A stretch of DNA of 64,000 nt from Roseateles koreensis. Its GTDB lineage: Bacteria > Pseudomonadota > Gammaproteobacteria > Burkholderiales > Burkholderiaceae_C. Below, one piece after another: positions 5,389-42,249 of the stretch; position 1 is the stretch's first letter, and every line of letters begins with the position of its first letter. The position numbers and the translations under genes were made by a program. Under the pieces are notes generated by a model. The model did no database searches and had not been told where the DNA came from. It was given only the letters and a program-made list of their open reading frames with translations. The DNA is taken from the NCBI RefSeq assembly GCF_028595305.1, contig NZ_JAQQXS010000006.1, forward strand, positions 1-64,000. The letters are read 5' to 3'.

Positions 5389-6333
5389 ATGCTGCCCATG
5401 AGAAAGCACAGCACCCAACAGGCCGCTCCACGGCACTATCAGACCCTGGAAGACGTCATTGGCAACACGCCACTTATTCGATTGCAACGCATGATTGCAC
5501 CGGAAATCGCCGCGCGCGGCAATGTGGTGTTGGCCAAACTTGAAGGGAACAATCCGGCTGGTTCGGTGAAAGATCGTCCAGCGATCAGCATGATCCGGCG
5601 CGCCGAGGAGCGTGGCGACGTCCAGCCTGGCGATACCTTGATTGAAGCCACCTCGGGCAATACCGGGATCGCCCTGGCGATGGCTGCGGCCATCCGTGGC
5701 TACCGTATGGTTTTGATCATGCCTGAGGATCTGTCCATTGAACGGGCGCAGACCATGAAGGCGTTTGGGGCTGAATTGATTCTGACCCCACGGTCCGGTG
5801 GCATGGAATACGCCCGGGATCTGGCCGAACAAATGCAGCGGGACGGTAAGGGCCGGGTGCTGGACCAATTTGCCAACGCAGACAACCCACGCGCGCACTA
5901 TGAAACCACCGGCCCCGAGCTGTGGCGCGACACGGGTGGCGAGATCACGCACTTTGTCAGTGCCATGGGTACGACAGGCACGATCACCGGAACTTCGCGC
6001 TATTTGAAGGAGCAAAACCCGGCCGTGCGCATCGTTGGCGCCCAGCCTTCGGAAGGCTCGCGCATTCCTGGCATTCGCAAATGGCCTGAGGCCTACCAGC
6101 CGAAGATCTATCAGCCCCAGGCGGTCGATGAGTTGGTGCTGGTGAGCCAGTCGGATGCGGAAGACATGGCCCGTCAATTGGCGCGCGAAGAGGGCCTGTT
6201 TGCCGGCATTTCGGCGGCGGGTGCGTGCTGGGTGGCCTTGCAATTGGCGCGCACGGTGGAGCGGGCCACGATTGTGTTTGTGGTCTGCGACCGGGGCGAT
6301 CGATATTTGTCGACGGGTGTATTCCCCGCCTGA
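5389..6333 (+). CDS. cysM: Cysteine synthase B (O-acetylserine sulfhydrylase)
   Basis: PLP enzyme that makes cysteine from O-acetylserine with sulfide or thiosulfate. The PLP lysine is in NPAGSVKDRPA (K61 with this start) and the phosphate-binding loop is SGNTG. The segment GSRIPGIRKWPEAYQPKIY is typical of CysM rather than CysK. Length is about 314 residues. ATGs at 5389 and 5398 and a TTG at 5377 are all possible; no clear Shine-Dalgarno decides. A TATTAT at 5331-5336 could be its -10 box. The substrate-producing cysE gene lies elsewhere in the window (21130). The NUDIX gene follows after 8 nt. Confidence 0.93.
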   Translation: MLPMRKHSTQQAAPRHYQTLEDVIGNTPLIRLQRMIAPEIAARGNVVLAKLEGNNPAGSVKDRPAISMIRRAEERGDVQPGDTLIEATSGNTGIALAMAAAIRGYRMVLIMPEDLSIERAQTMKAFGAELILTPRSGGMEYARDLAEQMQRDGKGRVLDQFANADNPRAHYETTGPELWRDTGGEITHFVSAMGTTGTITGTSRYLKEQNPAVRIVGAQPSEGSRIPGIRKWPEAYQPKIYQPQAVDELVLVSQSDAEDMARQLAREEGLFAGISAAGACWVALQLARTVERATIVFVVCDRGDRYLSTGVFPA

Positions 6334-6341
6334 GGCCTGCC

Positions 6342-6878
6342 ATGGATGAAGCGGCGGTTTATCGTTTTTGTCCGCAGTGCGCGGCAGCGCTTTCTTGGCT
6401 AAGCCGAGAAGAAGATGGCGGCCCCAAGTCACGGCTTCGCTGTGAGCGCTGTGAATTCACGCACTGGAACAACCCAACGCCGGTGTTGGCTGCGGTGATC
6501 GAGTGCGTGGACCGCGACGGGCAGGTTTTGCTGGCCCGCAACGCCGCCTGGCCTGGCCGTTTTTTTGGGCTGATCACGGGGTTCATGGAGGCCGCTGAAA
6601 CACCCGAGGCGGGCATTCAGCGGGAGATCGCCGAGGAAACAGCCCTGCAGGTGGAGGCCTTGAATTTGTTGGGCGTATGGGACTTTCAGCGCAAGAATCA
6701 AATCATCATCGCCTACCATGCCCAGGCCCGCGGAGAGATTCAGTTATCACCTGAGTTGGCCGAGTACAAGCTCATTGCGCCTGAAATGGTGCGCTGCTGG
6801 CCGCAGGGTACGGGGCAGGCCTTGGCCACTTGGCTGCGCCTGAAGGGGATTGAGCCGAAATGGCTGGAGCCTGTTTGA
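6342..6878 (+). CDS. NUDIX hydrolase with N-terminal zinc ribbon
   Basis: A 178-residue pyrophosphohydrolase. An N-terminal zinc ribbon uses two CxxC pairs (FCPQC near 8-12 and LRCERC near 32-37). The Nudix box GFMEAAETPEAGIQREIAEE follows; the final conserved Gly of the box is replaced by Thr. The zinc ribbon plus Nudix layout is that of NudC-like NADH/NAD-cap hydrolases, but the protein is shorter, so substrate is open. The start at 6342 lies 8 nt after cysM, and the longer frame from 6225 would overlap cysM deeply, so co-transcription with cysM is likely. Confidence 0.85.
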   Translation: MDEAAVYRFCPQCAAALSWLSREEDGGPKSRLRCERCEFTHWNNPTPVLAAVIECVDRDGQVLLARNAAWPGRFFGLITGFMEAAETPEAGIQREIAEETALQVEALNLLGVWDFQRKNQIIIAYHAQARGEIQLSPELAEYKLIAPEMVRCWPQGTGQALATWLRLKGIEPKWLEPV

Positions 6879-6959
6879 GTGTGAGCGCAAAGCGCCCTGC
6901 CGGTGCTGGTGTGATTCCCTAGGCTTTGTCGCGCTGGCATGGCCTCTAGAATGTGGCCC

Positions 6960-7187
6960 ATGGACGTACACAAAGAACTTGATACCCGCGGCTTGAACTG
7001 CCCCTTGCCCATCTTGAAGGCCAAGAAAGCCCTGGCCGAGATGGAAAGCGGCCAGTTGTTGAAGGTGATTGCCACAGACCCCGGCTCTATGCGGGACTTC
7101 AAGGCCTTTGCGCGCCAAACCGGCAATGAATTGGTCGATCAATCCAGCCAAGACGACGAATTCATCCACGTGCTCAAGCGGCGCTGA
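6960..7187 (+). CDS. TusA-family sulfurtransferase
   Basis: A 75-residue small sulfur carrier. It shows the signature LDTRGLNCPLPILKAKKAL with the sulfur-accepting Cys at residue 14 in CPxP. TusA proteins relay persulfide sulfur from a cysteine desulfurase to tRNA 2-thiouridine synthesis or other acceptors. The start at ATG 6960 gives the standard family length; a longer frame from 6939 adds seven residues with no homology. It sits downstream of cysM-NUDIX, a loose sulfur-metabolism neighbourhood, and converges on the DMT transporter. Confidence 0.88.
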   Translation: MDVHKELDTRGLNCPLPILKAKKALAEMESGQLLKVIATDPGSMRDFKAFARQTGNELVDQSSQDDEFIHVLKRR

Positions 7188-7217
7188 GGCCTGTATTAAG
7201 GGCGCGAAGGGCCTGTC

Positions 7218-8132
7218 TCAGCGTTCGCGCGGGGCGTTCCAGTTGCTGCGCATGGTGTTCAGGGAGGGCAAAACCTGCACGGCCACCATGCTGACAAAAA
7301 TCAGCGCGCAACCCGCCAGGCCGGATGAGTTCAGGCGGTCGCCCATCAACACAAAGCCAAAGCCGGCGGCAAACAAGGTTTCAGACGAGAGAATGATGGC
7401 GGCATCCGCCGCGTGGGCATAACGCTGCGCCACAACTTGCGCGGTGAACGCGACACCTACCGACATCACACCGGTGTAGACCAAGGGCCAAGCGGCGGCA
7501 CGTACTGCCTCCCTGTTGGCGGGCTCAAACATCAGCCCCCATGCCAGCGCCACCAGGCCGCACACTAGAAATTGGCCCAGCGCCACCGCGAAGGGGGCGG
7601 CCATGCGGTCGGCAAAGCGCCCGACCAGCAAGACATGAATCGCCCAGGGCAGCGCTGACGTCATCACCCAGAGGTCACCCACCCCGATCTGCAGGGTTCG
7701 CGCGCCTGACAACAAAAATGCCCCGACCAAGCAGGCCAGGGCGCCCGGCCATACCGACCAATGCGGCAACTGGCGCAGCAGCAGGTAGCCCAGCACGGGC
7801 ACCAAGGGCACATACAGCGCAGTGAGAAAACCCGCATTGGTGACCGTGGTGTTGATGATGCCGATCTGCTGCATGGCGGCACCCAGCAGCAGCAGGCCGC
7901 CGAGCCCGCCAATTTTCGCCAGGTCCCTGCGGGTTAGCGCATGACCTTTTGCCGATTGCCGACGCCACTCCGCTGCGGCAAATGGCAGCACCACCAAGGC
8001 TCCAATCAGAAAGCGCAGCCCCGTAAACATCATGGGCCCGATATGCGCCATCGCCTGGCTTTGCGCCACAAAGGCCGAGCCCCAGATTAAGGCGATGACG
8101 ACGAGCAAAAGATTGGCTTGGATACGGTTCAT
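7218..8132 (-). CDS. DMT (EamA) family transporter
   Basis: A 304-residue inner-membrane protein with about ten predicted transmembrane helices in two EamA repeats. Clear motifs include LLVVIALIWGSAFV at the N-terminus, GLRFLIGALVVLPFA and ALYVPLVPVLGYLLL. Members export amino acids or other metabolites, and nothing here fixes the substrate. The start at 8132 (MNRIQANLL) was chosen because the 16 upstream residues are hydrophilic and precede the first helix abnormally. Confidence 0.85.
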   Translation of the reverse strand: MNRIQANLLLVVIALIWGSAFVAQSQAMAHIGPMMFTGLRFLIGALVVLPFAAAEWRRQSAKGHALTRRDLAKIGGLGGLLLLGAAMQQIGIINTTVTNAGFLTALYVPLVPVLGYLLLRQLPHWSVWPGALACLVGAFLLSGARTLQIGVGDLWVMTSALPWAIHVLLVGRFADRMAAPFAVALGQFLVCGLVALAWGLMFEPANREAVRAAAWPLVYTGVMSVGVAFTAQVVAQRYAHAADAAIILSSETLFAAGFGFVLMGDRLNSSGLAGCALIFVSMVAVQVLPSLNTMRSNWNAPRER

Positions 8133-8253
8133 GGGGCGGGGTCGAGTGCGGCCTGGCGACTCGCCGGCAAAGCCTTCCATTATCGCTTTTTCGGAATTTG
8201 AAGCTACCTGCGCCGGCCATCAATCGTCAATCGCGTCACCTCAAACAAGCGCG

Positions 8254-9045
8254 TCAGCCTCGCAAGTAGGCAAGCTCTTCTTCGCTGAACCCTGCAGCCT
8301 CGCGGGCGGGCAGGTTGAATGGCGGGCGCAATTTGGGTGCCTCATAACGGGCTACCAGATCGGGGTAGAGCGCGATCGGGTCCAACCCTCGTTCATGGCA
8401 CAAATGGCGATACCAATGGTTGCCAATGTGAACGTGGCCAATTTCGTCGCGAAGGATGACATCCAGAATTTCAACCGCACGGGTGTCCCCCGCCTTGCCC
8501 AATTTGGCTTGTAGCGGGGGCGTGGCGTCCAGTCCTCGCGCTTCAAGCGTGCGTGGCACCAGTGCCATGCGGGCCAGCACATCGCCGGCCGTGCGTTCAG
8601 CCATGGTCCACAAGCCATCATGCGCATCAAAGTCACCATAGACATGGCCAAGGGTTTGCAGATGTGCATGCAGCAAGGTGAAATGGTGCGATTCTTCGGC
8701 CGCAACTTTCAGCCAGTCCCAATAGAACTGCTCAGGCATGCCGGGAAAACGCCAAACGGCGTCAAGCCCGAGATTGATGGCATTGAACTCAATGTGCGCA
8801 ATGGCGTGAATCAGTGCGGCCCGCCCTTCGACAGTGAAGGGGGAACGATGCGGCACCTGCAAAGCCGACAGCAGGCGAGGGCGCTCAGGCCGGCCGGGCA
8901 GGCCTTGCGGGCGCTCCAGCACGGCGCTTGGGTCTAAAGGGCCTTGTGAGGCCAGCGCCTCCTGGTACAGCTGAGTGGCGGCCGTGGCTTTGGCGGCGGG
9001 CTCGGTGATGCGGAGTACTTGCAGGGCGTGGCGGCGAATTTCCAT
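8254..9045 (-). CDS. DUF455 ferritin-like domain protein
   Basis: A 263-residue protein with the metal-ligand pattern of ferritin-like four-helix bundles: [12 protein letters not shown], then [15 protein letters not shown], then [12 protein letters not shown]. These Glu/His clusters would hold a di-iron centre. The DUF455 family is widespread in Burkholderiales but has no confirmed reaction. It is divergent from the gamma-carbonic anhydrase gene across about 120 bp. Confidence 0.88.
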
Positions 9046-9166
9046 GGCGCAATTATCCCGTCACCGGCATGGGAGACGGCTGGCCGGTAAAATTGCTGGC
9101 TTTGCTTCCAGTAGGCTTTGCCTCTTGAGGCTGCCGCAAACTGACGGACCGTGTGAGGAAAAAACA

Positions 9167-9691
9167 ATGGCCCTTTACCAATTGAAAGACGATGCACCCG
9201 TGGTGGCCGAGTCGGCCTGGGTGGCCGACAGTGCCGAGGTGATGGGGCGCGTGTCGCTGGGCGAGGATGTCACTGTCTGGTTCAATGCCGTGTTGCGTGG
9301 CGATACGGAGAGCCTCACGATCGGCGCGCGAAGCAATATTCAAGATGCTTCAGTCTTGCATGCCGACCATGGTTTTCCTTTGGTGCTGGGCGAAGGGGTG
9401 ACCGTGGGGCACCGGGTCATGCTGCACGGTTGCACGGTGGGCGACTACTCGCTGATCGGCATTGGCGCCATCGTGCTCAACGGCGCCAAAATCGGCAAAC
9501 ACAGCCTGGTGGGTGCCGGCGCCTTGGTTACAGAGGGCAAGGAGTTTCCTGATGGCTCGTTGATCGTGGGCAGCCCGGCGCGAGTCATTCGCCCGTTGAC
9601 GCCAGAGCAGATCGAGGGATTGAAGCTCAGCGCGGCGCATTACGTTGAAAACGGCCGCGACTACGCGACTTCCCTGAAGAAAATCAAATGA
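9167..9691 (+). CDS. Gamma-class carbonic anhydrase-like protein (left-handed beta-helix)
   Basis: A 174-residue hexapeptide-repeat protein of the YrdA/CaiE group. The zinc-type histidines match H65 (in VLHADHG), H82 and H87 (GHRVMLHGC). Hexapeptide turns run from about 20 to 140, and a helical C-terminus packs back on the helix. The start ATG at 9167 is preceded by GAGGA; upstream in-frame codons would overlap the DUF455 promoter region. Its last codons overlap the hslO start (ATGA), so the two are translationally coupled. Carbonic anhydrase activity varies within the family and is not assured. Confidence 0.88.
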
Positions 9692-10647
9692 GCGAACTCC
9701 ACAAATTTCTGTTTGAAGGCTTGCCGGTGCGCGGCATGTTGGTGCGTTTGACCGAGAGTTGGCGTGAGGTGCTGAAGCGGCGTGAAGTCGTGGGCGCCCA
9801 TCCGCCCGAACTGCGCGCTTTGTTGGGCGAAATGGCCGCCGCTGGCGTGCTGATGCAAAGCAATATCAAGTTCAACGGCGCCTTGATTCTTCAGGTGTTT
9901 GGCGACGGCCCGGTCAAGTTGGCCGTGACGGAAGTGCAGCCGGACCTGAGTTTCAGAGCCACCGCCAAGTTGGTGGGTGACGTGCCTGCAGGCGCCCAGC
10001 TGGAGGCCATGCTCAACGTGCACGGGCAGGGGCGCTGTGCCATCACTCTGGACCCCAAAGACAAGTTTCCAGGCCAGCAACCCTATCAAGGCGTGGTGCC
10101 TTTGTATGGCGACCAGCGGGAGCCATTGCAAAAGTTGTCAGAGGTGTTGGAGCACTACATGCTTCAGTCTGAACAGCTGGACACGCGGCTGGTGTTGGCG
10201 GCCAACGATGAGATGGCTGCAGGCTTGCTGATTCAACGCCTTCCCGTGCAGGGTGAAAACAACCTGGAAGGCGCCAGCAATGAAGATGACATCGGCTTGT
10301 CTGACGCGTTCAATCGCATCAGCATGCTTGCGTCGACCTTGACGTCTGAAGAGTTGCTGACCTTGGATGCTGACACCGTGCTGCGCCGCCTGTTCTGGGA
10401 AGAAACTGTGCGCCGCTTTGAGCCTTTAACGCCCAAATTTGCCTGCAATTGCTCGCGGGAGCGGGTGGGCCAAATGCTCAAAGGCCTGGGCCGGGACGAG
10501 GTGGACGGCGTGCTGGCTGAACTCGGCCATGTTGAAGTGGGTTGCGAATTCTGCGGTTTGCAGTACCAATTTGATGCCGTCGATGTGGGCAGTTTGTTTG
10601 CCGGCCATGTCGTGCAGCAAGCAGGCCAGAGCGGCACAGTGCAGTGA
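9688..10647 (+). CDS. hslO: Redox-regulated chaperone Hsp33
   Basis: A 319-residue cytosolic holdase activated by oxidation. The four zinc cysteines are C253 and C255 (CNC), and C286 and C289 (CEFC), giving CxC-30-CxxC as in the family. Oxidation forms disulfides, releases zinc and unfolds the linker that then binds clients. The ATG lies within the ATGA overlap with the carbonic-anhydrase-like gene. It converges on the NadR-type kinase gene. Confidence 0.95.
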
Positions 10648-10729
10648 TTGCGCGGGGCGATCTCAATCGGGAGATTTTAGGTCGCCGTCAACCCGCTGCG
10701 GTGTGGCCTGCGCCAGCCCGCTAGCCGGG

Positions 10730-11434
10730 TTAAGGCCTGCGCGCTTGCAGACTCCGGTGCTCGCACTCAGGGTCGTCGCATTTTTCACAAGCCCAGGTCC
10801 AGTTGGGCAGCTGAGTCTGGCGTTCGTTCAAACGGGTGAACAGGCCGTGCCCAGGGGGCTGGCGTCGCTGCTTGGTCAGTACCGGCGTGACGGCGTTGAG
10901 CGCGCTGTCCAGTCGTGCGGCGCCGCTGCCTGACACCACGGACCATCCCAGGCCCGATTTGATCAAGGCTTGCCGAATAGCGTTGTCGACAGGTGCTTGC
11001 ACCTGCGGGCCGTCACGTTGGATGCCGTCGGCCACCCAGGGCAGATCAAGCGCCGTCAAAAGGGTGAGCGCACAGCGGCGTTGAAAGGCCAAAGCCATCG
11101 GCCAAAGGCTGTTGTCCTGAAACAAAATCTGGCTGTAGGTGGCAGTCATCAGCGGCGTGGTGTCGCAGATCACCAGATCGTGTGCCAGCGCTGCTGTGTC
11201 GATCTTTTGTGCCTGGGCTTCGGCAATGGCGCCTTGCTCTTCTGGGCGCGGTGTTCGTCCCTGGGCTTGGCACCAGTCGCGCAGGGTTTCAGGCACGACC
11301 GTGCTGCGCAGCCCGGTGGCTTGGGCGAGCGCCTCGCTCAAAGAATGCGCCAACTGAGACTTACCCGTGCTTTCGGCACCGATCAGTGCGATCAGCAAGC
11401 CCCTGTTGCTGCCGCGCTCGGAGTCTTGCGTCAT
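10730..11434 (-). CDS. NadR-type nicotinamide riboside kinase (AAA/P-loop) with C-terminal Cys cluster
   Basis: A 234-residue P-loop kinase. Walker A is GAESTGKS (19-26), followed by VVPETLRDW and VICDTTPLMTATYS, the pattern of the C-terminal ribosylnicotinamide kinase domain of NadR. The DNA-binding and adenylyltransferase domains of full NadR are absent. It overlaps pnuC by ATGA, which strongly supports phosphorylation of imported nicotinamide riboside to NMN. Unusual is a C-terminal C216-x2-C219-x4-C224-x-H226 cluster that could hold a metal. The start at 11434 is set by the overlap; the longer frame to 11623 lies inside pnuC. Confidence 0.82.
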   Translation of the reverse strand: MTQDSERGSNRGLLIALIGAESTGKSQLAHSLSEALAQATGLRSTVVPETLRDWCQAQGRTPRPEEQGAIAEAQAQKIDTAALAHDLVICDTTPLMTATYSQILFQDNSLWPMALAFQRRCALTLLTALDLPWVADGIQRDGPQVQAPVDNAIRQALIKSGLGWSVVSGSGAARLDSALNAVTPVLTKQRRQPPGHGLFTRLNERQTQLPNWTWACEKCDDPECEHRSLQARRP

Positions 11435-12075
11435 GCTGGCTTTGTGTTCATGGGCGTGAGTTGCTGTTGCCAGGCACGCCAACCCGCTACGGAGAGTGGA
11501 ATGAATACCGCGTACAAGACGACGGTCAACCAATAGCCTTTGTAGGCGAACAGGCTGACGCTGACGATGTTGACCAGCACCCAGACGGTCCAGTTCTCCT
11601 GGTATTTGCGACCCAACAGCCACTGGCCCAGCAGGCTGGCAACGGTAGGCAGCGCATCCCAGAACGGAACGGGTGAGTCAGTTTGATGCCGCAAAAACAA
11701 GCCCAGCGCAGGCCAGGCCAAAGCGGTGAGCAACACGGCAAGGCCCAGGCCGCGGGGGCTCAGTCGACGTACTCGCAAGGGGGGGCCATCCACGCCTTGG
11801 CCGCGTCGCCACTGCCACCAGCCCCACAAAGCCAGGCTGGCAAACATCAGCTGCAGGGCGGCTTCACCGTAGAGCTTGCCATTCCAGAACAACAAAAAGT
11901 AAAGCAAAGAGCTGAGCAGCGCCAGGGGCCAACCTAGCACGTGGACCCGCATATTGCAGATCACCATCCAGATGGCCATCAGGAATGCCAGCACTTCAGC
12001 CCAGGTGATGGGGCTGCCCAGCAGGGTGAAAGCAGGCTGAAGCAGCGGTTGCAACAGGTGCAGCAGAGCGTCCAT
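11431..12075 (-). CDS. pnuC: Nicotinamide riboside transporter PnuC
   Basis: A 214-residue inner-membrane transporter with about seven transmembrane helices. The family's aromatic signature is WGWWQWRRG near residues 83-91, with LLYFLLFWNGKLYGEAALQ just before. PnuC facilitates diffusion of nicotinamide riboside, and trapping depends on phosphorylation by the coupled kinase gene. The stop codon overlaps the kinase start, and it begins 13 nt after ftsB. No thiamine riboswitch or other leader is visible upstream, which favours nicotinamide riboside over thiamine (PnuT). Confidence 0.88.
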   Translation of the reverse strand: MDALLHLLQPLLQPAFTLLGSPITWAEVLAFLMAIWMVICNMRVHVLGWPLALLSSLLYFLLFWNGKLYGEAALQLMFASLALWGWWQWRRGQGVDGPPLRVRRLSPRGLGLAVLLTALAWPALGLFLRHQTDSPVPFWDALPTVASLLGQWLLGRKYQENWTVWVLVNIVSVSLFAYKGYWLTVVLYAVFIPLSVAGWRAWQQQLTPMNTKPA

Positions 12076-33808: not shown

Positions 33809-34453
33809 CTAGTCAATTGCCGATTGTAGGCGGCGGCCGTGGTCGCAGTCGTTGGCCACGTTGCAGACGCTGCACAAGGGCTGCCTCGCCTTGCAGACAT
33901 AGCGGCCATGGAGAATCAGCCAATGGTGGGCGTCAACCATGAATTCAGGCGGAATGCGCTTCAGCAAGCCCATCTCGACCGCCAGAGGCGTTTTGCCCGG
34001 GGCCAAACCTGTACGGTTGCTGACTCTGAACAGATGGGTGTCCACCGCCATCGTGGGCTCGCCGAATGCTACGTTGAGCACCACATTGGCGGTCTTGCGG
34101 CCCACCCCCGGCAAGGCCTCCAGCGCGGCTCTGCTGCGTGGAACCTGGCCTTGATGCTGGTCGATCAAAATCTGGCAGGTCGCCAAAAGATGCCTGGCCT
34201 TGCTGTGGTAGAGGCCGATGGTGCGAATCTGCTCGCTCAAGCCCGCCAAGCCCAGCGCAAGAATTTTTTGAGGAGTGTTGGCGATGGGGAACAAGCGCCG
34301 CGTGGCCTTGTTGACGCCCACGTCGGTGGCTTGCGCGGACAAGAGCACGGCCGTCAACAATTCGAAAACGCTGGCATATTCCAACTCTGTCTGCGGGCTC
34401 GGATTGGCTGCGCGCAGGATTTCAAAAAAGTTTTGGATCTGCAAGCTGTTCAT
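33809..34453 (-). CDS. nth: Endonuclease III
   Basis: A 214-residue DNA glycosylase/AP lyase removing oxidised pyrimidines. The catalytic K120 (LPGVGRKTANVV) and D138 (VDTHLFRV) fall at the same positions as in E. coli. The 4Fe-4S cluster cysteines are C187, C194, C197 and C203. It is divergent from the lipid A operon. Elsewhere it often neighbours rnfB, which here is 4 kb away. Confidence 0.97.
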   Translation of the reverse strand: MNSLQIQNFFEILRAANPSPQTELEYASVFELLTAVLLSAQATDVGVNKATRRLFPIANTPQKILALGLAGLSEQIRTIGLYHSKARHLLATCQILIDQHQGQVPRSRAALEALPGVGRKTANVVLNVAFGEPTMAVDTHLFRVSNRTGLAPGKTPLAVEMGLLKRIPPEFMVDAHHWLILHGRYVCKARQPLCSVCNVANDCDHGRRLQSAID

Positions 34454-34678
34454 GGTTCAGCATTCTCCACTGCCTTGGCGTGGCAAAAGCTCAGGCATGA
34501 TGACGCCCGTTGCGCAGCGGCTTCACGCGAGTGCAATTTTTGTGATCGACGGTGGCCAATAGATCGCCAACGTCGGTCAGCCAGGGACTTTTTCCAAAGC
34601 CAGCAGCTTTGTTGTTGTCTACGGCTCAAACGCGGCGTTCAACCCAATCCAGCATCTGACCCAATCAAGTAATTAGTT

Positions 34679-36124
34679 ATGAATACGCCCCACAAGACGC
34701 ATCTGACGGCAAAGCACTGGCTTGGGTTGCTGGGCCTGCTCCTGGTTTTGCGTCTGCTGTCATTGGGTGCCATGCCACTGACGGACCACACAGAAGCGCG
34801 TTACGCTGAAATTGCACGCCTGATGGTGGTGCAGGGCGACTGGATCAGTCCGCACATCACGCCCGATGAGGTGTTCTGGGCGAAACCTCCCTTGTCTACC
34901 TGGACGCAGGCTGCGGCCATGGCAGCCCTGGGCGTCAGCGAGTGGGCGGCTCGTTTGCCTGCGGTGGCGTGGAGTCTGTTGAGTCTGTGGGCTTTGGCGT
35001 GGATGTTGCGCGTGAGTTTGTCGGCCTTGCAGGTGTCTGTGGCCTTGGTGGCTTTGGTGTTGAGCCCCTTGTTTTTCATCAGCGCCGGTGCGGTGATGAC
35101 CGACGCCACCTTGGGGGCCTGTGTGATGCTGGTGCAGGCGGCGTGGTGGCGGGTCTTGCAAAGCGAGGGGGCGGCGCGCACCAAATACGCCCGTGTTCTG
35201 GCACTTGGCATGGCCTTGGCGCTCTTGACCAAGGGACCCGCGGCGGCCGTGCTGGCCTTGTTGCCGATCTTGCTGCACGCGGGTTGGCGGCGGCACTGGC
35301 CGGTGGTGCTCAGCGTATTGCGCGACCCGTCCGTCTGGTTGATTTGCCTGGGCTTGTCTCTGCCTTGGTATGTGGTGGCTGAAATCAAGACGCCAGGGTT
35401 TTTGCAGTATTTCGTGCTGGGCGAACATGTGATGCGTTTCCTGCAGCCCGGCTGGACGGGCGACCGCTACGGGTTTGCGCACGCCCAACCGCGCGGCATT
35501 ATTTGGGCGTTTACGGTGGTGGCGGCCTTGCCGGCGGTGGTGGTCATGCTGCTGCGTTTGGCAGGCTTGCGCTGGGGGCAGGGACGAGGCGCGGTGCAAC
35601 GGCAGTTGGTGGCCTCGGGTGGCACTGAGTTGGCCAGTTATGCGGTGTGCATCGTGCTGGCGCCCTTGCTCTTGTTCAGCTTTGCCCGCAATCTCATTTT
35701 TACCTATGCCATGACAGCCTTGCCGGGCTTGGCCATTCTGGCGGTCCAAGTATTTTCTGAGCGCACGTTTGAGCACATCAAGGCCGGGGCCATCGCGGGT
35801 GTGCTGGGCTTGGTTTTTGCGTGGGCCTTCTTGATCAAGCTGCCTGAAATCGGGCGCCAGCACTCCGATCTGCCACTGATTCAGGCCTACGAGGCGGCGT
35901 GCCCTGCGCAAGATTGCCGCCTGAGCTATGTCAGAAAGCCGCCGTACTCTGCGTATTTCTACACCGCCGGGCGTCTGTATGCTGGCATGCCCGGTCAGCC
36001 CGGTGCGCCGGCCTTTGTCGTGCAGCCCTTTGCCAAAAATTCTTCGCCACCCATTGCTGCGCTGGCTTGCAACAAGGAACAATGTCTGCTGCGCGACGAA
36101 AGCGCTGCGACTAACTCACGCTGA
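34679..36124 (+). CDS. ArnT-like glycosyltransferase family 39 protein
   Basis: A 481-residue inner-membrane protein with about 11-12 transmembrane helices. The first periplasmic loop carries the acidic motif TDHTEARYAEIARLM (near 35-49) and VFWAKPPLSTW, as in ArnT/PMT-type lipid A glycosyltransferases that use undecaprenyl-phosphate sugar donors. It is the first gene of a four-gene coupled operon with GT2, GtrA-like and deacetylase genes. The sugar is predicted to be an amino-hexose rather than 4-amino-arabinose, because no arnA/B-type genes are present. Confidence 0.87.
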   Translation: MNTPHKTHLTAKHWLGLLGLLLVLRLLSLGAMPLTDHTEARYAEIARLMVVQGDWISPHITPDEVFWAKPPLSTWTQAAAMAALGVSEWAARLPAVAWSLLSLWALAWMLRVSLSALQVSVALVALVLSPLFFISAGAVMTDATLGACVMLVQAAWWRVLQSEGAARTKYARVLALGMALALLTKGPAAAVLALLPILLHAGWRRHWPVVLSVLRDPSVWLICLGLSLPWYVVAEIKTPGFLQYFVLGEHVMRFLQPGWTGDRYGFAHAQPRGIIWAFTVVAALPAVVVMLLRLAGLRWGQGRGAVQRQLVASGGTELASYAVCIVLAPLLLFSFARNLIFTYAMTALPGLAILAVQVFSERTFEHIKAGAIAGVLGLVFAWAFLIKLPEIGRQHSDLPLIQAYEAACPAQDCRLSYVRKPPYSAYFYTAGRLYAGMPGQPGAPAFVVQPFAKNSSPPIAALACNKEQCLLRDESAATNSR

Positions 36125-37176
36125 TGCCGATGCATTCGACTTATACGCCCCCACTCCATAGCACCCGTTCTCATGCGATGGCCTTGCCACCCATGCCTGC
36201 GTTTTCGCCCGAGGAGCGCGCGCAGCCAGGTTTGTTGTCAGTCGTGCTGCCGGCCTTCAATGAAGCCGCCAATCTGGCCTGGCTGTTGCCTGAGCTGACT
36301 CGGCAGTTGGCCGGTGTGGCGAGGCAGCTCGAACTGCTGGTCGTGGACGACGGCAGCAAAGATGACACCGTGCTGTTGGTTCACAGCTTGATTCAGCAAG
36401 GCCTGCCGGTGCGGCTTTTGCGCCTGTCCCGCAACTTCGGCAAAGAAGCTGCGCTGACGGCCGGGTTGGATGCCGCAGAGGGTGACGTCGTGTTGACGAT
36501 GGACTCTGACGGGCAACACCCTATCGCCACGGTGATGCAAATGCTGCCCGCCTGGCGAGAAGGCTTTGACGTGGTGTACGGCGTGCAAACCGGGCGGCGT
36601 GAGTCGCAGTCGGCGGCCCGGCGCGGGTATACCAAGTTTTTCTATTGGCTGATGCAACGCGATTCGCGCTTTGAATTGCCATCGGATGCCGGCGATTTCA
36701 GACTGCTCGACCGCCGCGTCGTGCTGGCCTTGCGCAGTTTGCCCGAGCGTGCCCGCTACATGAAGGGCTTGTTCGCTTGGGTGGGTTTCAAGTCGAAGGC
36801 CATTGAATTTGTGCCTGACGCGCGGGCACATGGCGAGACCACGTTCGACTTCATGCGCCTGATGTCGCTGGCCGTGGTGGGGCTGACGGCGTTCAGCAAA
36901 GTGCCGCTGCGCATGGTGTCGATGCTGGGCTTTGTGGTGTCGATCGCCTCGGGCGTTTTCGGTTGTTGGATCATTTTGGAGAAGGCGCTGTTCGGCAATC
37001 CGATCTCTGGTTTCGCCACCTTGGCGGCGTCGATCACCTTCCTGGCAGGTGTGCAGTTATTGTGTCTGGGCATCATTGCTGAATACCTTGGCCGGGTATT
37101 TGACGAGGTGAAACAGCGCCCCCTGTATCTCGTGCAGGAATTGACTCCCCCGTTGGACGCACCGGAGGAAGTTTGA
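36124..37176 (+). CDS. DPM/ArnC-type glycosyltransferase family 2 protein
   Basis: A 350-residue GT2 enzyme. The N-terminal catalytic domain has VVLPAFNEAANL, VVDDGSKDDT (about 73-82) and the divalent-cation motif DSDG (127-130). Two C-terminal transmembrane helices (about 260-285 and 300-325) anchor it. It would charge undecaprenyl phosphate with an N-acetylhexosamine. The ATG shares one base with the GT39 stop (TGATG). The first 20-odd residues before the GT2 fold are weakly supported, so the start may be at a later Met (about 36178). Confidence 0.88.
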   Translation: MPMHSTYTPPLHSTRSHAMALPPMPAFSPEERAQPGLLSVVLPAFNEAANLAWLLPELTRQLAGVARQLELLVVDDGSKDDTVLLVHSLIQQGLPVRLLRLSRNFGKEAALTAGLDAAEGDVVLTMDSDGQHPIATVMQMLPAWREGFDVVYGVQTGRRESQSAARRGYTKFFYWLMQRDSRFELPSDAGDFRLLDRRVVLALRSLPERARYMKGLFAWVGFKSKAIEFVPDARAHGETTFDFMRLMSLAVVGLTAFSKVPLRMVSMLGFVVSIASGVFGCWIILEKALFGNPISGFATLAASITFLAGVQLLCLGIIAEYLGRVFDEVKQRPLYLVQELTPPLDAPEEV

Positions 37177-37556
37177 ACTCCTTGCTTTGGTTTGGCCTGG
37201 TGGGCGCCAGCGCTGCGGCGGTCCACTTTATGGTTGTTTGGTTGCTGGTATCGCAATGGCAGGTGGCAGCGTTGGCGGCCAATGTGCTTGGATTTTTGCT
37301 CGCGTTCTGGGTGAGCTTTGTGGGGCATCACCGTTTGAGCTTCGCGGCGCAGCAGGCCACTGTGCGGACCTCTTTGCCGCGGTTTGCCTTGGTGGCAAGT
37401 CTTGGCTTTGTCAGCAATGAGTTGCTCTACGCACTCTTGCTGAGTTGGGGAATGGAATATCGTTTGGCCTTGTTCGCGGTGCTGGTGGCGGTTGCGGTGA
37501 TGACGTTTGTGTTGAGCCGGTTCTGGGCCTTTCGAGCCCGGTCGTCGCTGCCGTGA
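37173..37556 (+). CDS. GtrA-family membrane protein (candidate lipid-linked sugar flippase)
   Basis: A 127-residue protein with four predicted transmembrane helices, beginning LLWFGLVGASAAAVHFMVVW and containing ANVLGFLLAFWVSFVGHHRL. GtrA proteins are thought to move undecaprenyl-phosphate-linked sugars across the membrane. The start is TTG (37173-37175), overlapping the GT2 stop (TTGA), with GGAGGA 6 nt upstream as a strong ribosome site. Confidence 0.85.
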   Translation: MNSLLWFGLVGASAAAVHFMVVWLLVSQWQVAALAANVLGFLLAFWVSFVGHHRLSFAAQQATVRTSLPRFALVASLGFVSNELLYALLLSWGMEYRLALFAVLVAVAVMTFVLSRFWAFRARSSLP

Positions 37557-38353
37557 AACGCATTCAGATTTGCGCCGACGACTACGGCTTCGACGATGCG
37601 GTCAGCCGGGGCATTCTCGATTGCATCGATGCCGGGCGCATCAGCGCGACCAGTTGCATGGTGCTGTCACCCGTTTGGGCCGATTGGGCGGGCGCCCTGC
37701 GCGAGCGCAGCGGTGCGGCAGACTATGGCTTGCATCTCGATATCAACGAGTTTGCCGACTATGCGCCGGGGCAAGGCTTGTCCGCATGGATCCGCCAGGG
37801 CTATTTCAGACAGTTGGATCGATCGCAACTGCGCAGTTGGATCGCGACGCAACTGGATGCTTTTGAAGCACAAATGAAGCGTGCACCCGACTACGTTGAC
37901 GGCCACCAGCACGTGCATCAACTGCCACAGTTGAGAGAAGAATTATTGCGCGCGGTGACTCAGCGTTATGGGCCGCGTTGTGCGGTTCGGTCGACGCAAA
38001 CCCGGGTTTGGCGTGGCAGCAAGGCGGCTGTGATTGCGGCCTTGGGCTCCGCGGCATTGCGACGGGGTGCGCGCAAGGCAGGTTTGCGTGCCAACCGTGA
38101 CTTTGCAGGTGTTTATGGTTTTGAGGCGACAGCCTCCTTCAGTGAACTGGCTGCTGGCTGGCTGGCGTCACTGCCAGATGGTGGCTTGATGATGACGCAC
38201 CCCGGCCAAAACGGTGCCACGCAAACCCGCCATGATCCGATTCGAGCTGCACGGGTGCGTGAGTGGCAATTCTGGATGGGCGAAGAGGCTGGCGAGCTGC
38301 TGGCCAGCCTGGGTGTGCAGTTGGGCATGAGCGAGGACTGGCCGCTGGCTTGA
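37553..38353 (+). CDS. ChbG/HpnK (YdjC) family carbohydrate deacetylase, NaxD-like
   Basis: A 266-residue metal-dependent deacetylase. ICADDYGFDDAVSRG gives D9 and D10, GLHLDIN gives H61, and DGHQHVHQLP (116-125) supplies further His ligands; MTHPGQ is near the end. YdjC proteins remove N- or O-acetyl groups from sugars. In Francisella NaxD this acts on undecaprenyl-phosphate GalNAc. The GTG start (37553) overlaps the gtrA-like stop (GTGA). The frame open to 37445 is a shadow of the preceding gene. Confidence 0.87.
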   Translation: MKRIQICADDYGFDDAVSRGILDCIDAGRISATSCMVLSPVWADWAGALRERSGAADYGLHLDINEFADYAPGQGLSAWIRQGYFRQLDRSQLRSWIATQLDAFEAQMKRAPDYVDGHQHVHQLPQLREELLRAVTQRYGPRCAVRSTQTRVWRGSKAAVIAALGSAALRRGARKAGLRANRDFAGVYGFEATASFSELAAGWLASLPDGGLMMTHPGQNGATQTRHDPIRAARVREWQFWMGEEAGELLASLGVQLGMSEDWPLA

Positions 38354-38467: not shown

Positions 38468-39172
38468 CTACCGCCCCTGCGGACTACTTTGCGCGCGGGC
38501 GCGGGCGCGGGCCAATGCGGCTTCGATGATGGCGCGTTTGCGGTCCAGTTCAGTAGGTTCAGTGATCTTGGATGCAGCGGCCAAGTCAGCCAGCTTGGCT
38601 TCGGCCTTGGCTTGCAGGCGTGCATTGTTTTCAGACCTTGCGCGGGTGTCACGCAGTTTGTGAAAGGCGTAGCGCTCGCGTGCTTGATCCGCTTGCTCGG
38701 GACTCCAGGCGGCCCATGCGCTGCGGTCTTCCGTGACATTGATCAGGGCAATGCAATCGACTGGGCAGGCCGGCACACACAACTCACAGCCTGTGCATTG
38801 GTCCGCCACAACCAAATGCATAGCCTTTGGCGCGCCCACGATGCAGTCGACCGGGCAGGCTTTGATGCACAGCGTGCAGCCGATGCACCAAGCTTCATCG
38901 ATCACCGCCAGGGTGCGCGGGCCTTCAACGCCGTGTTCCGCGCTGAGGGGCAGGCGCGGCTGCCCCATCAGGGCGGCCAGGCGAGCGACCCCTTCATCAC
39001 CGCCTGGCGGGCATTGGTTGATGCCCGCCAAGCCTTGAGCCACGGCCTGCGCATAGCTGTGGCAGTCCGGGTAGCCGCACCGGGTGCACTGCGTTTGGGG
39101 CAGGGCAGCGTCGATGCGGGCTGTCAGGCTTTCGGTGGCGCTGTCAGTATTGAGTGAGCAGGATGGGATCAA
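38468..39172 (-). CDS. rsxB: RnfB/RsxB-like ferredoxin (soluble form)
   Basis: A 234-residue iron-sulfur protein. A C29-x2-C32-x4-C37-x16-C54 site resembles the RnfB 4Fe-4S domain. Two bacterial ferredoxin sites follow, [15 protein letters not shown] and [15 protein letters not shown]. The membrane helix of canonical RnfB is missing and no other rnf gene is nearby, so it probably acts as a soluble electron carrier. A long charged C-terminal helix (Ala/Arg/Lys/Glu) follows. The TTG start overlaps the phaZ stop (TTGA), suggesting translational coupling. Confidence 0.82.
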
Positions 39173-40551
39173 GCGGGTTTCTTGCTGCGGCTGGTTCGCG
39201 AGGGTGTGGGTGCCTGGGCTGCTTTGGTTGCTGGCACCGCGGACACCTTGGGTCCCACAGGGGTCTCCGCTGCGGCTCGTACGGCAGGCTCTGCCGCTTG
39301 CACGGCGTTAGGCTTGTCGTAGGAAAGGATGAAGCTCTTCACTTCGGGATAAACATTCTCGCGCCAGCGACGGCCCGAGAAAATCCCGTAATGGCCCGCG
39401 CCAACGGCGTCGTAGTGGAACTGGTGCTCTTTGGGTACGCTGGCACACAGCTCATGGGCCGCGCGCGTTTGGCCTGCACCGGAGATATCGTCCAACTCGC
39501 CTTCAATGGTCAGCAAGGCGGTGCCGGTGATGTCCTGCGGGCGAACCTGCTGGCCATTGACGAACCAAGTCCCGTTGACCAAGGAGAAATCCTGGAATAC
39601 GACCCGGATGGTGTCGAGGTAATACTCGGCCGGCATGTCCAGCACGGCGTTGTATTCGTCGTAGAACTGGCGATGCGAGTCGGCGCTGTCGTCATCACCT
39701 CGAACCAGATCGAGGAAGTAGTCGTAGTGGGAGGTGACATGCCGGTCGGGGTTCATTGCCACGAAGCCGGTGTGCTGCAAGAAGCCGGGATAGACGGCTC
39801 GCCCAGCGCCCGGGAAATTGGTCGGGACGCGGTAGATGACATTGTTCTCGAACCAGCTGTAGCTGCGGTTCATGGCCAGATTGTTGACTGCAGTCGGGCT
39901 GCGGCGGGCATCAATGGGGCCACCCATCATGGTCATACTGCGGGGCGTTTGCTCGCCTGCCGACGCCATCAAGGAGATGGCGGCCAGCACCGGCACTGTG
40001 GGCTGACACACCGAAATCACATGGCAGTCGGGCCCGACGTGGCGGATGAAATCCTGGACATACGCGATGTAGTCGTCCAGATGGAAGGCGCCCACTTCTA
40101 GCGGCACCATACGGGCGTCGGTCCAGTCGGTGATGAACACCTTGTGGTCCTTCAACAACTGCCGAACCGTGTCGCGCAGCAAGGTACTGTGGTGACCCGA
40201 CAGCGGCGCCACGACCAACACGGTGGGCTGGTCTTTCATCTTCTGCAGCACGGCCGGGTCGTCTGTGTAGCGCTTGAAACGCAACAGGCGGCAGAAGGGT
40301 TTGGTGACAGGAATCAACTCCTGCACCGCCACCTCGACACCGTCTACCTCCACGCCCCGAATGCCAAACTCAGGCTTTTCGTAGTCTTTGGCCAGCCGGT
40401 GCATCAAATCCAGACCTGCCGACACCCGCTGGGACAATGGCGAATGCGAGAACGGCGACAGGGGGTGGCTGTAAAGTTTGGCCGATGCGCTGGCGAACTC
40501 CGAGAAGGGGCTCATCAAGGCGCGCTGAGTTTCAAAGAGTTGATACAGCAT
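39169..40551 (-). CDS. phaZ: Intracellular polyhydroxyalkanoate depolymerase
   Basis: A 460-residue alpha/beta-hydrolase that breaks down stored PHB. It matches Ralstonia PhaZ1-type enzymes: [19 protein letters not shown] at the N-terminus and the nucleophile Cys in ISVCQPTVP (C182, near C183 of PhaZ1). The catalytic Asp and His lie in [12 protein letters not shown] and [12 protein letters not shown]-terminal tail of about 45 residues rich in Ala, Pro and Lys goes beyond the 419-residue reference and may bind granules or phasins. Its stop overlaps the RsxB-like gene. Confidence 0.94.
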
Positions 40552-40857
40552 GGGATGGACTCGGGTTGGCGGAAAGGTGAATTCTGGTCATCATGCCAGA
40601 ATTTGTGCGCTGCAGCATTTTAACAAAAGAATGAAAACAGGCCAGATCTGCTTTTACGTCGCCTGGCTTGTAAGAAACTTACACAAGATTTTGAGCCTCC
40701 CCTTGGCGACCGCCAAGCACCCGGCTGAGTTTGAAGCTCTCGCCTGAGGGAGTAATGCGCATTTGGATTCGACTTTTGCGGCCGCAAAGCACTGCGGGCC
40801 ACCTCTTGCAAGGTGACCCGCAGTGAGTGGGCGAGTTGGTGCCGGCAGTTTGACGAG
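40552..40857. other. Spacer of 306 bp between aminotransferase and phaZ
   Basis: No gene recognised. It contains a strong hairpin near the aminotransferase end (listed separately), a palindrome TTTTGCGGCCGCAAA at about 40774-40788, and GTAAG-AAA-CTTAC near 40670. The A/T-rich part (40600-40640) may hold the phaZ promoter. Confidence 0.5.
40790..40825 (-). terminator. Hairpin downstream of aminotransferase gene
   Basis: CACTGCGGG (40790-40798) pairs with CCCGCAGTG (40817-40825), extended by CACCT/AGGTG (40800-40804, 40811-40815). A 14-bp stem follows the aminotransferase stop on the minus strand. The U tract is weak (GCTTTGC). Confidence 0.6.
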
Positions 40858-42060
40858 TTAGGCCTGCATGACTGCTGCCATAGCCTGAGCCACAGCGGGC
40901 AGGTTTTTGGTGTTCAACGCGGCCACGCAAATGCGGCCAGAGTCAACACCATAAATGCCAAACTCACTGCGCAGGCGCTGCATTTGCGCGGCATTCAGGC
41001 CTGAGTAGCTGAACATGCCCTTTTGGCGCGTCACGAAACTCAGGTCGGTGGTCACACCCGCGGTATTCAGGGCCTCAACGAGCGCTGAGCGCATCGCGCG
41101 GATGCGCAGACGCATGCCAGCCAGTTCCTCCTCCCACAGCGCGCGAAGCGCCGGCGTGCCCAGCACCATAGCCACAACTTGCGCGCCATGCGTGGGAGGG
41201 TTGGAGTAGTTGGTGCGAATCACGATTTTCAGCTGACTCAGGACGCGGGTGCATTCTTCGGCCGAAGCGCAAACCACGCTCAGGGCGCCAACGCGCTCGC
41301 CGTACAGCGAGAAGCTCTTGGAGAAGCTGGTGGAGACAAAGAAGTCCAGGCCGGCGGCCAGAAATTGCTGGATCACGGCGCCGTCTTCGGCGATGCCTTC
41401 GCCAAAGCCTTGGTAGGCCATGTCGAGAAAGGCCACCAGGTTGCGGGCTTTGACGGCTGCCACCACTTGCGCCCATTGGGCGGGGCTGAGGTCATAGCCG
41501 GTCGGGTTGTGGCAGCAGGCGTGCAGCACGACCACGGTGCCCTCGGCTGCGGCATTCAAGGCGGCTAGCATGCCGTCGAAGTTGATGCCCAGTTGATCGG
41601 CGTCGTAGTACGGATAGCTGCCGACTTGAAACCCAGCGTTGGTGAACAGCGCGCGGTGGTTTTCCCAGCTGGGGTCGGAAATCAGCACTTGTGCGCCCGG
41701 GTTCAGGCGCTTGAGAAAGTCGGCGCCGATCTTCAGGCCGCCGGTGCCCCCAATGGCCTGCACGGTGGCGACGCGATGGTCCTGAACCACGGCGCTGTCG
41801 GCGCCAAACACGAGGCCCTGCACGGCTTTGTCATAGGCGGCAATGCCGTCGATCGGCAGATAGCCGCGAGCCTTCGGGTCGGCCTGCATGGCGGCTTCAG
41901 CTTGGGCGACGCACTTCAACAGAGGCAATTTGCCGTTTTCGTCGAAGTAGACGCCCACGCCCAAGTTGACCTTGGCGGGGTTGGTGTCAGCGTTGAATTG
42001 CTCATTGAGACCCAGGATGGGGTCGCGGGGGGCCATTTCGACGGCGGCAAACAAAGACAT
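40858..42060 (-). CDS. Aromatic/aspartate aminotransferase
   Basis: A 400-residue class I PLP aminotransferase of the TyrB/AspC group. It starts SLFAAVEMAPRDPILGLNEQ, has VNLGVGVYFDENG, HACCHNPTGYDLS, and the PLP lysine in STSFSKSFSLYGERVG. This order of motifs matches beta-proteobacterial aromatic aminotransferases, which also accept aspartate. The start at 42060 was chosen; the 25 upstream residues do not match. It is divergent from uvrB. Confidence 0.93.
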   Translation of the reverse strand: MSLFAAVEMAPRDPILGLNEQFNADTNPAKVNLGVGVYFDENGKLPLLKCVAQAEAAMQADPKARGYLPIDGIAAYDKAVQGLVFGADSAVVQDHRVATVQAIGGTGGLKIGADFLKRLNPGAQVLISDPSWENHRALFTNAGFQVGSYPYYDADQLGINFDGMLAALNAAAEGTVVVLHACCHNPTGYDLSPAQWAQVVAAVKARNLVAFLDMAYQGFGEGIAEDGAVIQQFLAAGLDFFVSTSFSKSFSLYGERVGALSVVCASAEECTRVLSQLKIVIRTNYSNPPTHGAQVVAMVLGTPALRALWEEELAGMRLRIRAMRSALVEALNTAGVTTDLSFVTRQKGMFSYSGLNAAQMQRLRSEFGIYGVDSGRICVAALNTKNLPAVAQAMAAVMQA

Positions 42061-42249
42061 GGGGATTCCTGACGGGACGTTGGCGGTATCAAGGGAAAAG
42101 TGGAGCTTGACAGGACTTGCGCGCGGCTCCCGCACGAAACGGGGCCGACTGCGCTAATCTGTCAGGTTGCGCAGCGGTCCCGATTTTAGGGGCTGCCACG
42201 TCGGCTTTTGCCGGTTTTCCGGTTGCCGCCATGATTCAGGAACCCCAGC

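Follow-up and report, generated by a model that had tools for sequence, protein, structure and literature searches.

What do four overlapping genes at positions 34,679–38,353 of a Roseateles koreensis contig (NZ_JAQQXS010000006.1) do for the cell that carries them? The stretch analysed here, the first 64,000 nucleotides of that contig, is referred to as the window. In order on the forward strand, the genes encode a glycosyltransferase of family GT39, one of family GT2, a small GtrA-family membrane protein and a YdjC-family deacetylase. From gene content, gene linkage, predicted folds, conserved candidate metal ligands and a mosaic phylogeny, all computed here, we consider it probable that this mosaic operon carries out a four-step extracytoplasmic glycosylation, placing an amino sugar on an envelope acceptor, most likely a phosphate of lipid A. 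The GT2 enzyme would load an N-acetylhexosamine (HexNAc), either N-acetylglucosamine (GlcNAc) or N-acetylgalactosamine (GalNAc), from UDP-HexNAc onto undecaprenyl phosphate (Und-P) to give Und-P-HexNAc. The YdjC protein would then deacetylate this intermediate at the cytoplasmic face, GtrA would flip the Und-P-hexosamine across the inner membrane, and the GT39 enzyme, which belongs to a clade that we call type I, would pass the positively charged amino sugar to the acceptor. The surface would become less negative, which is how the 'lower outer-membrane charge' predicted in an earlier note on this DNA should read. The core of that note, a lipid-linked HexNAc that is deacetylated and then transferred by an ArnT-type enzyme, draws support from the folds, the gene linkage, the GT2 tree and, less clearly, the GtrA tree, and from the lack of a two-domain ArnA in the genome.

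The four genes and their genomic site

The first gene (34,679–36,124; ATG start, 481 aa; Pfam PMT, 53.2 bits) encodes an ArnT-like GT-C transferase of type I. It is followed by a polyprenyl-phosphate sugar synthase of family GT2 and the ArnC/DPM type (36,124–37,176; ATG start, 350 aa; Glycos_transf_2, 100.2 bits), the GtrA protein (37,173–37,556; TTG start, 127 aa; GtrA_DPMS_TM, 72.7 bits) and a NaxD-like deacetylase of the YdjC/ChbG fold (37,553–38,353; GTG start, 266 aa; YdjC, PF04794, 160.7 bits against a cut-off of 29.7). All four scores exceed the family cut-offs. The junctions read TGATG between GT39 and GT2 (1-nt overlap), TTGA between GT2 and GtrA (4 nt) and GTGA between GtrA and YdjC (4 nt). 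For YdjC, GTG at 37,553 was preferred over a longer TTG start at 37,445 in the list of open reading frames; the family match begins just after 37,553. The 4.37 Mb genome holds one YdjC gene, one GtrA gene and two PF02366 genes, so that the grouping is not a product of chance.

The operon is flanked by two conserved neighbours that stand outside the system, as seen in the family scan and in relatives' loci, namely the divergent nth (endonuclease III; 33,809–34,453, reverse strand) on the left and rsxB (38,468–39,172, reverse strand) on the right. The order nth-operon-rsxB/phaZ is kept in seven of the eight loci of the window's GT39 subclade (L060, L066, L068, L079, L081, L086 and L088, of which L066 and L086 look like a single genome; L087 is the exception). 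A possible start codon lies at −1 or −4 nt at 22 of the 24 junctions in these eight loci and at 35 of 45 in all 15 loci examined, counts made with a script that picked the start nearest to the stop and is thus biased to short overlaps. The recurring site, gene order and junction overlaps therefore indicate an inherited operon and not an accident of reading; coordinates, domains and recurrence in relatives bear out the overlapping four-gene operon of the earlier note. Recent mobile acquisition in the window's group was considered and rejected, given that the nth/rsxB site is common to seven of the eight loci. Judged by YdjC, and among the best 80 of 533 matches, the nearest named relatives are Paucibacter and Roseateles strains; the name Paucibacter resolves to the genus Roseateles at NCBI. 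The operon promoter is expected in the intergenic region up to nth (34,454–34,678). No sigma-70 consensus was found in that region, and the scan returned 0 promoters and 5 terminators, against 7.2 in shuffles.

The deacetylase and its GT2 and GtrA partners

Residues D9, D10, H61, H118 and H120 of the YdjC protein are invariant in 36 aligned rows and are candidate metal ligands. The AlphaFold model (pLDDT 95.7, from the 36-row alignment) has ChbG (7vi8) and EF3048 (2i5i) as its best matches in the Protein Data Bank (PDB), with ArnD (8t0j) weaker at rank 10. As in NaxD/LgmC-type systems, the gene lies together with those for a polyprenyl-phosphate GT2 and for an ArnT-like GT39. NaxD, also of the YdjC family, is described as deacetylating Und-P-GalNAc before galactosamine (GalN) is added to lipid A (PMC11279074), and the deacetylation step is placed in the cytoplasm (PMC9431647).

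Gene linkage was counted in two samples. A PF04794 search of 150 genomes of the family gave a match over the cut-off in 54, and the resulting family sample comprises the window and L031–L084 (55 loci), 54 of which passed the YdjC threshold; L061, in which YdjC fell below the script threshold and no partner was seen, was omitted, L085 is a sub-cut-off fragment, and several loci are cut by contig ends. Within 4.5 kb of YdjC, GT2 is present in 48 of the 54 loci, GtrA in 43 and GT39 in 36, with all three partners in 32 and none in 5. The second sample consists of 80 named loci, taken as the best from 533 that were confirmed, and thus leans towards close kin; there GT2 lies near YdjC in 78, GtrA in 72, GT39 in 46 and all three in 40. 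When the samples are pooled, 113 of the 134 loci have both GT2 and GtrA near YdjC, those of Achromobacter, Acinetobacter and Chromobacterium among them; GtrA is near YdjC in 115, and GtrA and GT39 both are in 74. Both the chemistry and the parts have precedents, and operons of this type are common among the sampled Betaproteobacteria; the suggestion that a GtrA protein would make this a distinct arrangement therefore fails.

The same counts bear on whether YdjC lies here by chance and works in the metabolism of hopanoids or chitin oligosaccharides, as HpnK or ChbG, which we regard as very improbable indeed. There are NCBIfam matches to HpnK (52.8 bits) and to chitin disaccharide deacetylase (36.2 bits), and some YdjC loci of the family sample, the five mentioned above, have no partner nearby, although contig ends cut some of these. 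Both scores are weak, however, lying far under the respective cut-offs of 232.6 and 227, and each assignment was rejected on that ground; moreover, the YdjC/GtrA overlap recurs in relatives and a GT2 gene is nearby in most of the sample.

The four genes occur around YdjC in more than ten kinds of order and orientation, and the linkage is hence not inherited synteny alone. The window's order is found also in Chromobacterium piscinae (L109) and Aquitalea (L124), Acinetobacter has YdjC-GT2-GtrA-GT39 (L141, L163), and Achromobacter has GT2-GT39-GtrA(reverse)-YdjC. PMT_2, another GT-C type, accounts for eight of the nine scanned neighbour proteins from YdjC loci without GT39 (ten proteins were picked by eye, nine of them from such loci, and no rate is claimed). 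In the YdjC tree (128 rows), the 20 rows linked to a type-I GT39 are scattered, corresponding to 8 changes, 2 of which are forced by well-supported branches.

Nearly the full length of the GT2 protein can be aligned with sll0501 (9e-78) and with ArnC structures (about 1e-40). The GT2 tree has 122 rows and places the window in a 90-row clade with a Shimodaira–Hasegawa-like approximate likelihood ratio (SH-aLRT) support of 99; 89 of these rows are YdjC-linked, and the clade mixes type-I, type-II and other GT-C operons. Type-I GT2 rows without YdjC lie outside it in 19 of 20 cases, the sole one inside coming from Paracoccus, and a separate 23-row group (SH-aLRT 82) contains 17 rows without YdjC nearby and 6 with it. 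The GtrA tree (121 rows, 118 columns) is weakly resolved, the window falling in a 67-row group (SH-aLRT 89) that is entirely YdjC-linked. GT2, GtrA and YdjC rows were dereplicated at 85% after hits shorter than 750, 250 and 600 bases, respectively, had been left out, and these trees carry SH-aLRT support only; the YdjC-linked label is by distance (3.6 kb), and two rows so labelled, L107_4558 and L158_11332, may belong to a second pair. Our reading of the trees is that GT2, GtrA and YdjC largely travel together, whereas their GT-C partner changes; in a few type-I operons (L034, L047, L146), YdjC seems to have been combined with the other GT2 type. Separately, in Herminiimonas contaminans (L139, 6,621–7,509) the GT2 match is split into two pieces lying in different frames, as if the gene were broken or misassembled.

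The GtrA and GT2 trees support a place for GtrA in the route to a deacetylated sugar, which would be compatible with a flippase or with a partner of GT2. That GtrA is a membrane partner of GT2, a different protein flipping the donor, seems to us rather improbable. The Pfam family is named GtrA/DPMS and covers the membrane domain of DPM synthase, and GtrA and GT2 split alike by YdjC linkage, as partners also would. Set against this, the sll0501 and ArnC structures, with which the GT2 protein aligns almost throughout, have a C-terminal membrane part that presumably needs no separate partner, and in the relative G333 (described below) an arnE-like gene sits with its own arn set, suggesting one carrier per donor. 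GtrA is also the proposed flippase in many three-component systems (PMC11127046, PMC8035078). On the other side, lgmD of the Bordetella cluster is reported not to be essential (PMC4993483), which would favour the partner role if lgmD is a GtrA. We continue to favour GtrA as the flippase.

The GT39 transferase and its relatives

Which enzyme would receive the flipped sugar? In the GT39 tree (84 rows; three low-scoring rows were dropped and the long row L100 was kept) the window falls in the 20-row type-I clade with support of 100/99, apart from a type-II clade to which the Achromobacter and Acinetobacter enzymes belong, together with those of most loci in the family sample. E. coli ArnT is on a long branch and its placement is unsure. 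As far as Achromobacter and Acinetobacter stand for the known lipid A systems, the parallel that had been drawn between those systems and this GT39 does not extend to its kinship, the nearest relatives being a gtrABM-like subfamily mostly without a deacetylase rather than the transferases of the Achromobacter or Acinetobacter operons.

Likeness to ArnT, for which a structural check had been suggested, is found in the fold. The AlphaFold model (pLDDT 93.6, 43-row alignment) has ArnT with undecaprenyl phosphate (5f15, E 1.3e-15) as its best PDB match, and ALG12 (1.6e-6) comes next behind the two entries for ArnT; a viral fold search gave no useful match. The protein does not reach the cut-off of the ArnT equivalog NCBIfam PRK13279 (103.1 bits against 567). 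The (P)DE(G/T)RY motif of ArnT is replaced by D36-x-x-E39-x-R41-Y42. At position 38, the type-I rows have T in 17 cases, S in 2 and another residue in 1, with D two residues earlier at 36, although these 20 rows, the same as those of the tree clade, were selected by motif and the counts are partly circular; in type II, 61 of 62 rows have D at this position, as does E. coli ArnT. Residues E39, R41, Y42, K69, R92, D142, K185 and R253 are common to type I, type II and E. coli ArnT, K69 and R253 having what we take to be a phosphate-binding role, and in the motif table a 7-residue insert at 261–267 is exclusive to type I. A wider alignment of 45 type-I rows (A4, matches of a profile built from alignment A3) shows D36 conserved in at least 90% and E39 invariant. 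The R. koreensis genome also carries a second, type-II-like GT39 (G000:C11:4750-6606, L214), and no GT2, GtrA or YdjC match was found in the 14 kb fetched around it.

Of 300 genomes of the order, 22 gave clear matches to a type-I profile (228–520 bits; the next was 192), and the window's genome is one of them. Among the 20 loci fetched within the order, seven have YdjC (L173–L177, L180, L184) and seven have neither GT2 nor GtrA in the fetched stretch (L182, L183, L186, L187, L190, L191, L192); a further locus, L211, is without YdjC. In the first six of the latter seven, and in L201, the type-I GT39 gene has no complete match to GT2 or GtrA closer than about 6 kb. Outside the order, in a phylum sample of 398 genomes, YdjC accompanies none of 18 type-I loci, GT2 is present at 17 and a GtrA match at 17, many of these GtrA matches being weak (24–61 bits) and two more than 3 kb away in the fetched stretch. 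The usual type-I system outside the order is therefore GtrA-GT2-GT39 without a deacetylase, and these 18 loci mostly look like gtrABM three-component systems. Since the window's GT39 belongs to this clade, the operon is by its phylogeny a mosaic of a GT2-GtrA-YdjC donor cassette and a transferase from the gtrABM-like three-component family. YdjC-linked rows that fall elsewhere in the GT2 and GtrA trees (below) indicate that the cassette was not always inherited as a unit.

The gtrABM systems (Pseudomonas putida czc cluster, Cupriavidus metallidurans gtr1 and the plasmid loci L170 and L172) share GtrA, GT2 and a GT-C enzyme with the window. A plasmid search gave four records with short, distant matches and led to gtrABM-like loci. 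The GT39 proteins of L170 and L172 fall in the window's clade; no YdjC was found at these two loci, whereas the window has one overlapping GtrA at 37,553. Judging by their arrangement, the published gtrM genes probably belong to type I. The copy on the P. luteola plasmid (L170) adjoins a heavy-metal two-component system and the Paracoccus plasmid copy (L172) another two-component system. On the latter plasmid, from Paracoccus seriniphilus, open reading frames that by eye resemble a transposase remnant (8,360–9,145) come just after GtrA, in the place that YdjC occupies in other operons, and the locus contributes a GT2 row to the YdjC-linked clade although no YdjC was found there.

Response regulators of the OmpR class made up seven of eight neighbours from type-I loci without YdjC (L181, L188, L194, L197, L202, L203, L204), five of them matching cztR/silR/copR best and two RppA, with every score under the curated cut-off. 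A neighbour from another such locus, L178, had no family match, and two from the YdjC locus L173 were not regulators; neighbour proteins for these scans were chosen by eye and no rate is claimed. A response regulator near a type-I GT39-GT2 pair in Massilia (L158) scored 298.3 against a cztR/silR/copR cut-off of 279.2. The C. metallidurans gtr1 region is one of those for which up-regulated signals are listed on exposure to a mix of metals (PMC11647585). No such response regulator was found among the immediate neighbours scanned at the window operon. In Thiobacillus thioparus (L102, 2,793–4,857), genes for a response regulator resembling TctD/PmrA/QseB and for a sensor kinase resembling QseC, both under curated cut-offs, stand divergent from a GT2-GT39-GtrA-YdjC operon, followed by a gene from a PMT_2-containing cluster.

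We tentatively put forward a bolder version, which we hold to be possible but with less confidence than the four-step pathway. GT2-GtrA-YdjC would be a portable cassette that delivers Und-P-hexosamine to the outer face by way of a dedicated GtrA flippase, and into which various GT-C enzymes (type-II GT39, type-I GT39 or PMT_2) plug. The window's enzyme would represent a separate ArnT-like subfamily in which the catalytic acid is shifted; it would come from stress- or metal-linked gtrABM systems and would pass an amino sugar to the acceptor that those systems decorate otherwise.

The acceptor and the known lipid A systems

Achromobacter is the sister genus of Bordetella, and its loci (L110, L111, L121, L130, L131, L134, L147) served as a stand-in for lgm. 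They likewise carry GT2, GT39, GtrA and YdjC in one locus, but differ from the window in gene order, as given above, and in having a type-II GT39 with a PDEGRY motif. In B. pertussis, lgmA-C are reported as required for glucosamine (GlcN) on lipid A (PMC4993483). The naxD-type operons of Acinetobacter brisouii (L141) and A. calcoaceticus (L163) are co-directional like the window's, but again have a type-II GT39 and another gene order. NaxD is linked to GalN on A. baumannii lipid A (PMC6635527, PMC11279074), and a 2022 paper (PMC9431647) states that the enzymes for transport and attachment of this GalN had not been identified by then. The GT2, GtrA and GT39 neighbours in L141 and L163 may be regarded as candidates for these steps. 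A LysR-type regulator lies just upstream of the operon in L141. By its published description, Francisella FlmF2-NaxD-FlmK is similar in making lipid A galactosamine with two glycosyltransferases and a deacetylase (PMC11279074).

The arnBCADTEF system for aminoarabinose (L-Ara4N), as annotated in E. coli, follows a like logic with an ArnC-like GT2, the deformylase ArnD, the flippase ArnE/F and ArnT. In the window YdjC replaces ArnD, GtrA replaces ArnE/F, no two-domain ArnA is present, and GT2 and GT39 are only distantly related to their arn counterparts. The earlier statement that there is no arnA-type gene holds genome-wide for the two-domain form, the two halves of ArnA matching different contigs at 27–28% identity. 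An aminoarabinose system was rejected on this result and on the missed ArnT equivalog cut-off, with the reservation that a split ArnA could still be encoded. The lipid A of Chromobacterium violaceum bears GlcN and Ara4N; nothing usable was found on Chromobacterium lipid A in the open-access literature.

A screen with the E. coli Arn proteins found ArnA/ArnB-like genes beside the operon in one of 177 loci, L180 of the order-level relative G333. Here the type-I GT39-GT2-GtrA-YdjC operon is divergent from, and back-to-back with, a set of arn-like genes (L215, G333:C20:86000-100000, 6,328–11,910). The set consists of an arnT-like gene (type-II-like), an arnE-like gene abutting an arnB-like one, an arnC-like gene with 52% identity to E. 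coli ArnC, and one that resembles the formyltransferase half of ArnA; no ArnD or ArnF match was found in it at 1e-5. In this one case, the operon has as neighbours both lipid A genes and a dedicated flippase of another kind.

Lipid A is, in our estimate, the likeliest acceptor and a plausible one: among solved folds that of ArnT comes nearest, lipid A is the target of known systems built from these parts, and G333 pairs the operon with arn genes. As in gtrABC-type systems, the same donor chemistry could serve another acceptor, be it O-antigen, the lipopolysaccharide core, a periplasmic protein or some other glycan, and this we judge unlikely though well short of negligible. It would fit the deacetylase-free GtrA-GT2-GT39 systems within the type-I clade, the rarity of arn-like genes near the operon and the reports that three-component systems elsewhere modify O-antigen or cell-wall polymers (PMC11127046, PMC8035078). 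Besides the fold, in a list that held no O-antigen Gtr structure, and G333, the neighbours scanned at the window (33,809–34,453 and 38,468–42,135) speak for lipid A instead, being nth, rsxB, phaZ and an aminotransferase with no O-antigen genes among them.

Other observations weigh against the four-step pathway with lipid A as its end point, in addition to the lgmD report and the single arn-linked locus. The Asp of the ArnT DE motif is T38 in the window's GT39, whose nearest kin are gtrABM-like enzymes, and GtrM is listed under 'protein o-glycosylation' (PMC3056050). Ten of the 99 YdjC-linked GT2 rows fall outside the 90-row clade, six YdjC-linked GT2 rows group with systems without YdjC in the 23-row group, and 33 of the 100 YdjC-linked GtrA rows fall outside the 67-row group, some beside rows without YdjC. 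A split-domain ArnA, as in G333, is conceivable in the window's genome. Weighing the gtrABM-like kinship against the lipid A evidence leaves us with lipid A as the probable, not the certain, target.

In the open-access literature, we did not find the GT2-GtrA-YdjC cassette described as a unit, nor its GT-C exchange, nor a type-I GT39 with a deacetylase; no title on GtrA with flippase, ArnT or deacetylase describes this operon, and 'NaxD' and 'GtrA' are mentioned together only in work on Drosophila blood cells. The annotation 'ArnT-like' hides at least two clades that differ in the acidic motif of the first loop. If the proposed pathway is true, candidates are at hand for two missing steps in the making of hexosamine-modified lipid A, transport and attachment, and the flippase question becomes testable in environmental relatives. 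It would also mean that making the donor and choosing the acceptor are separable functions, which have been re-paired in evolution.

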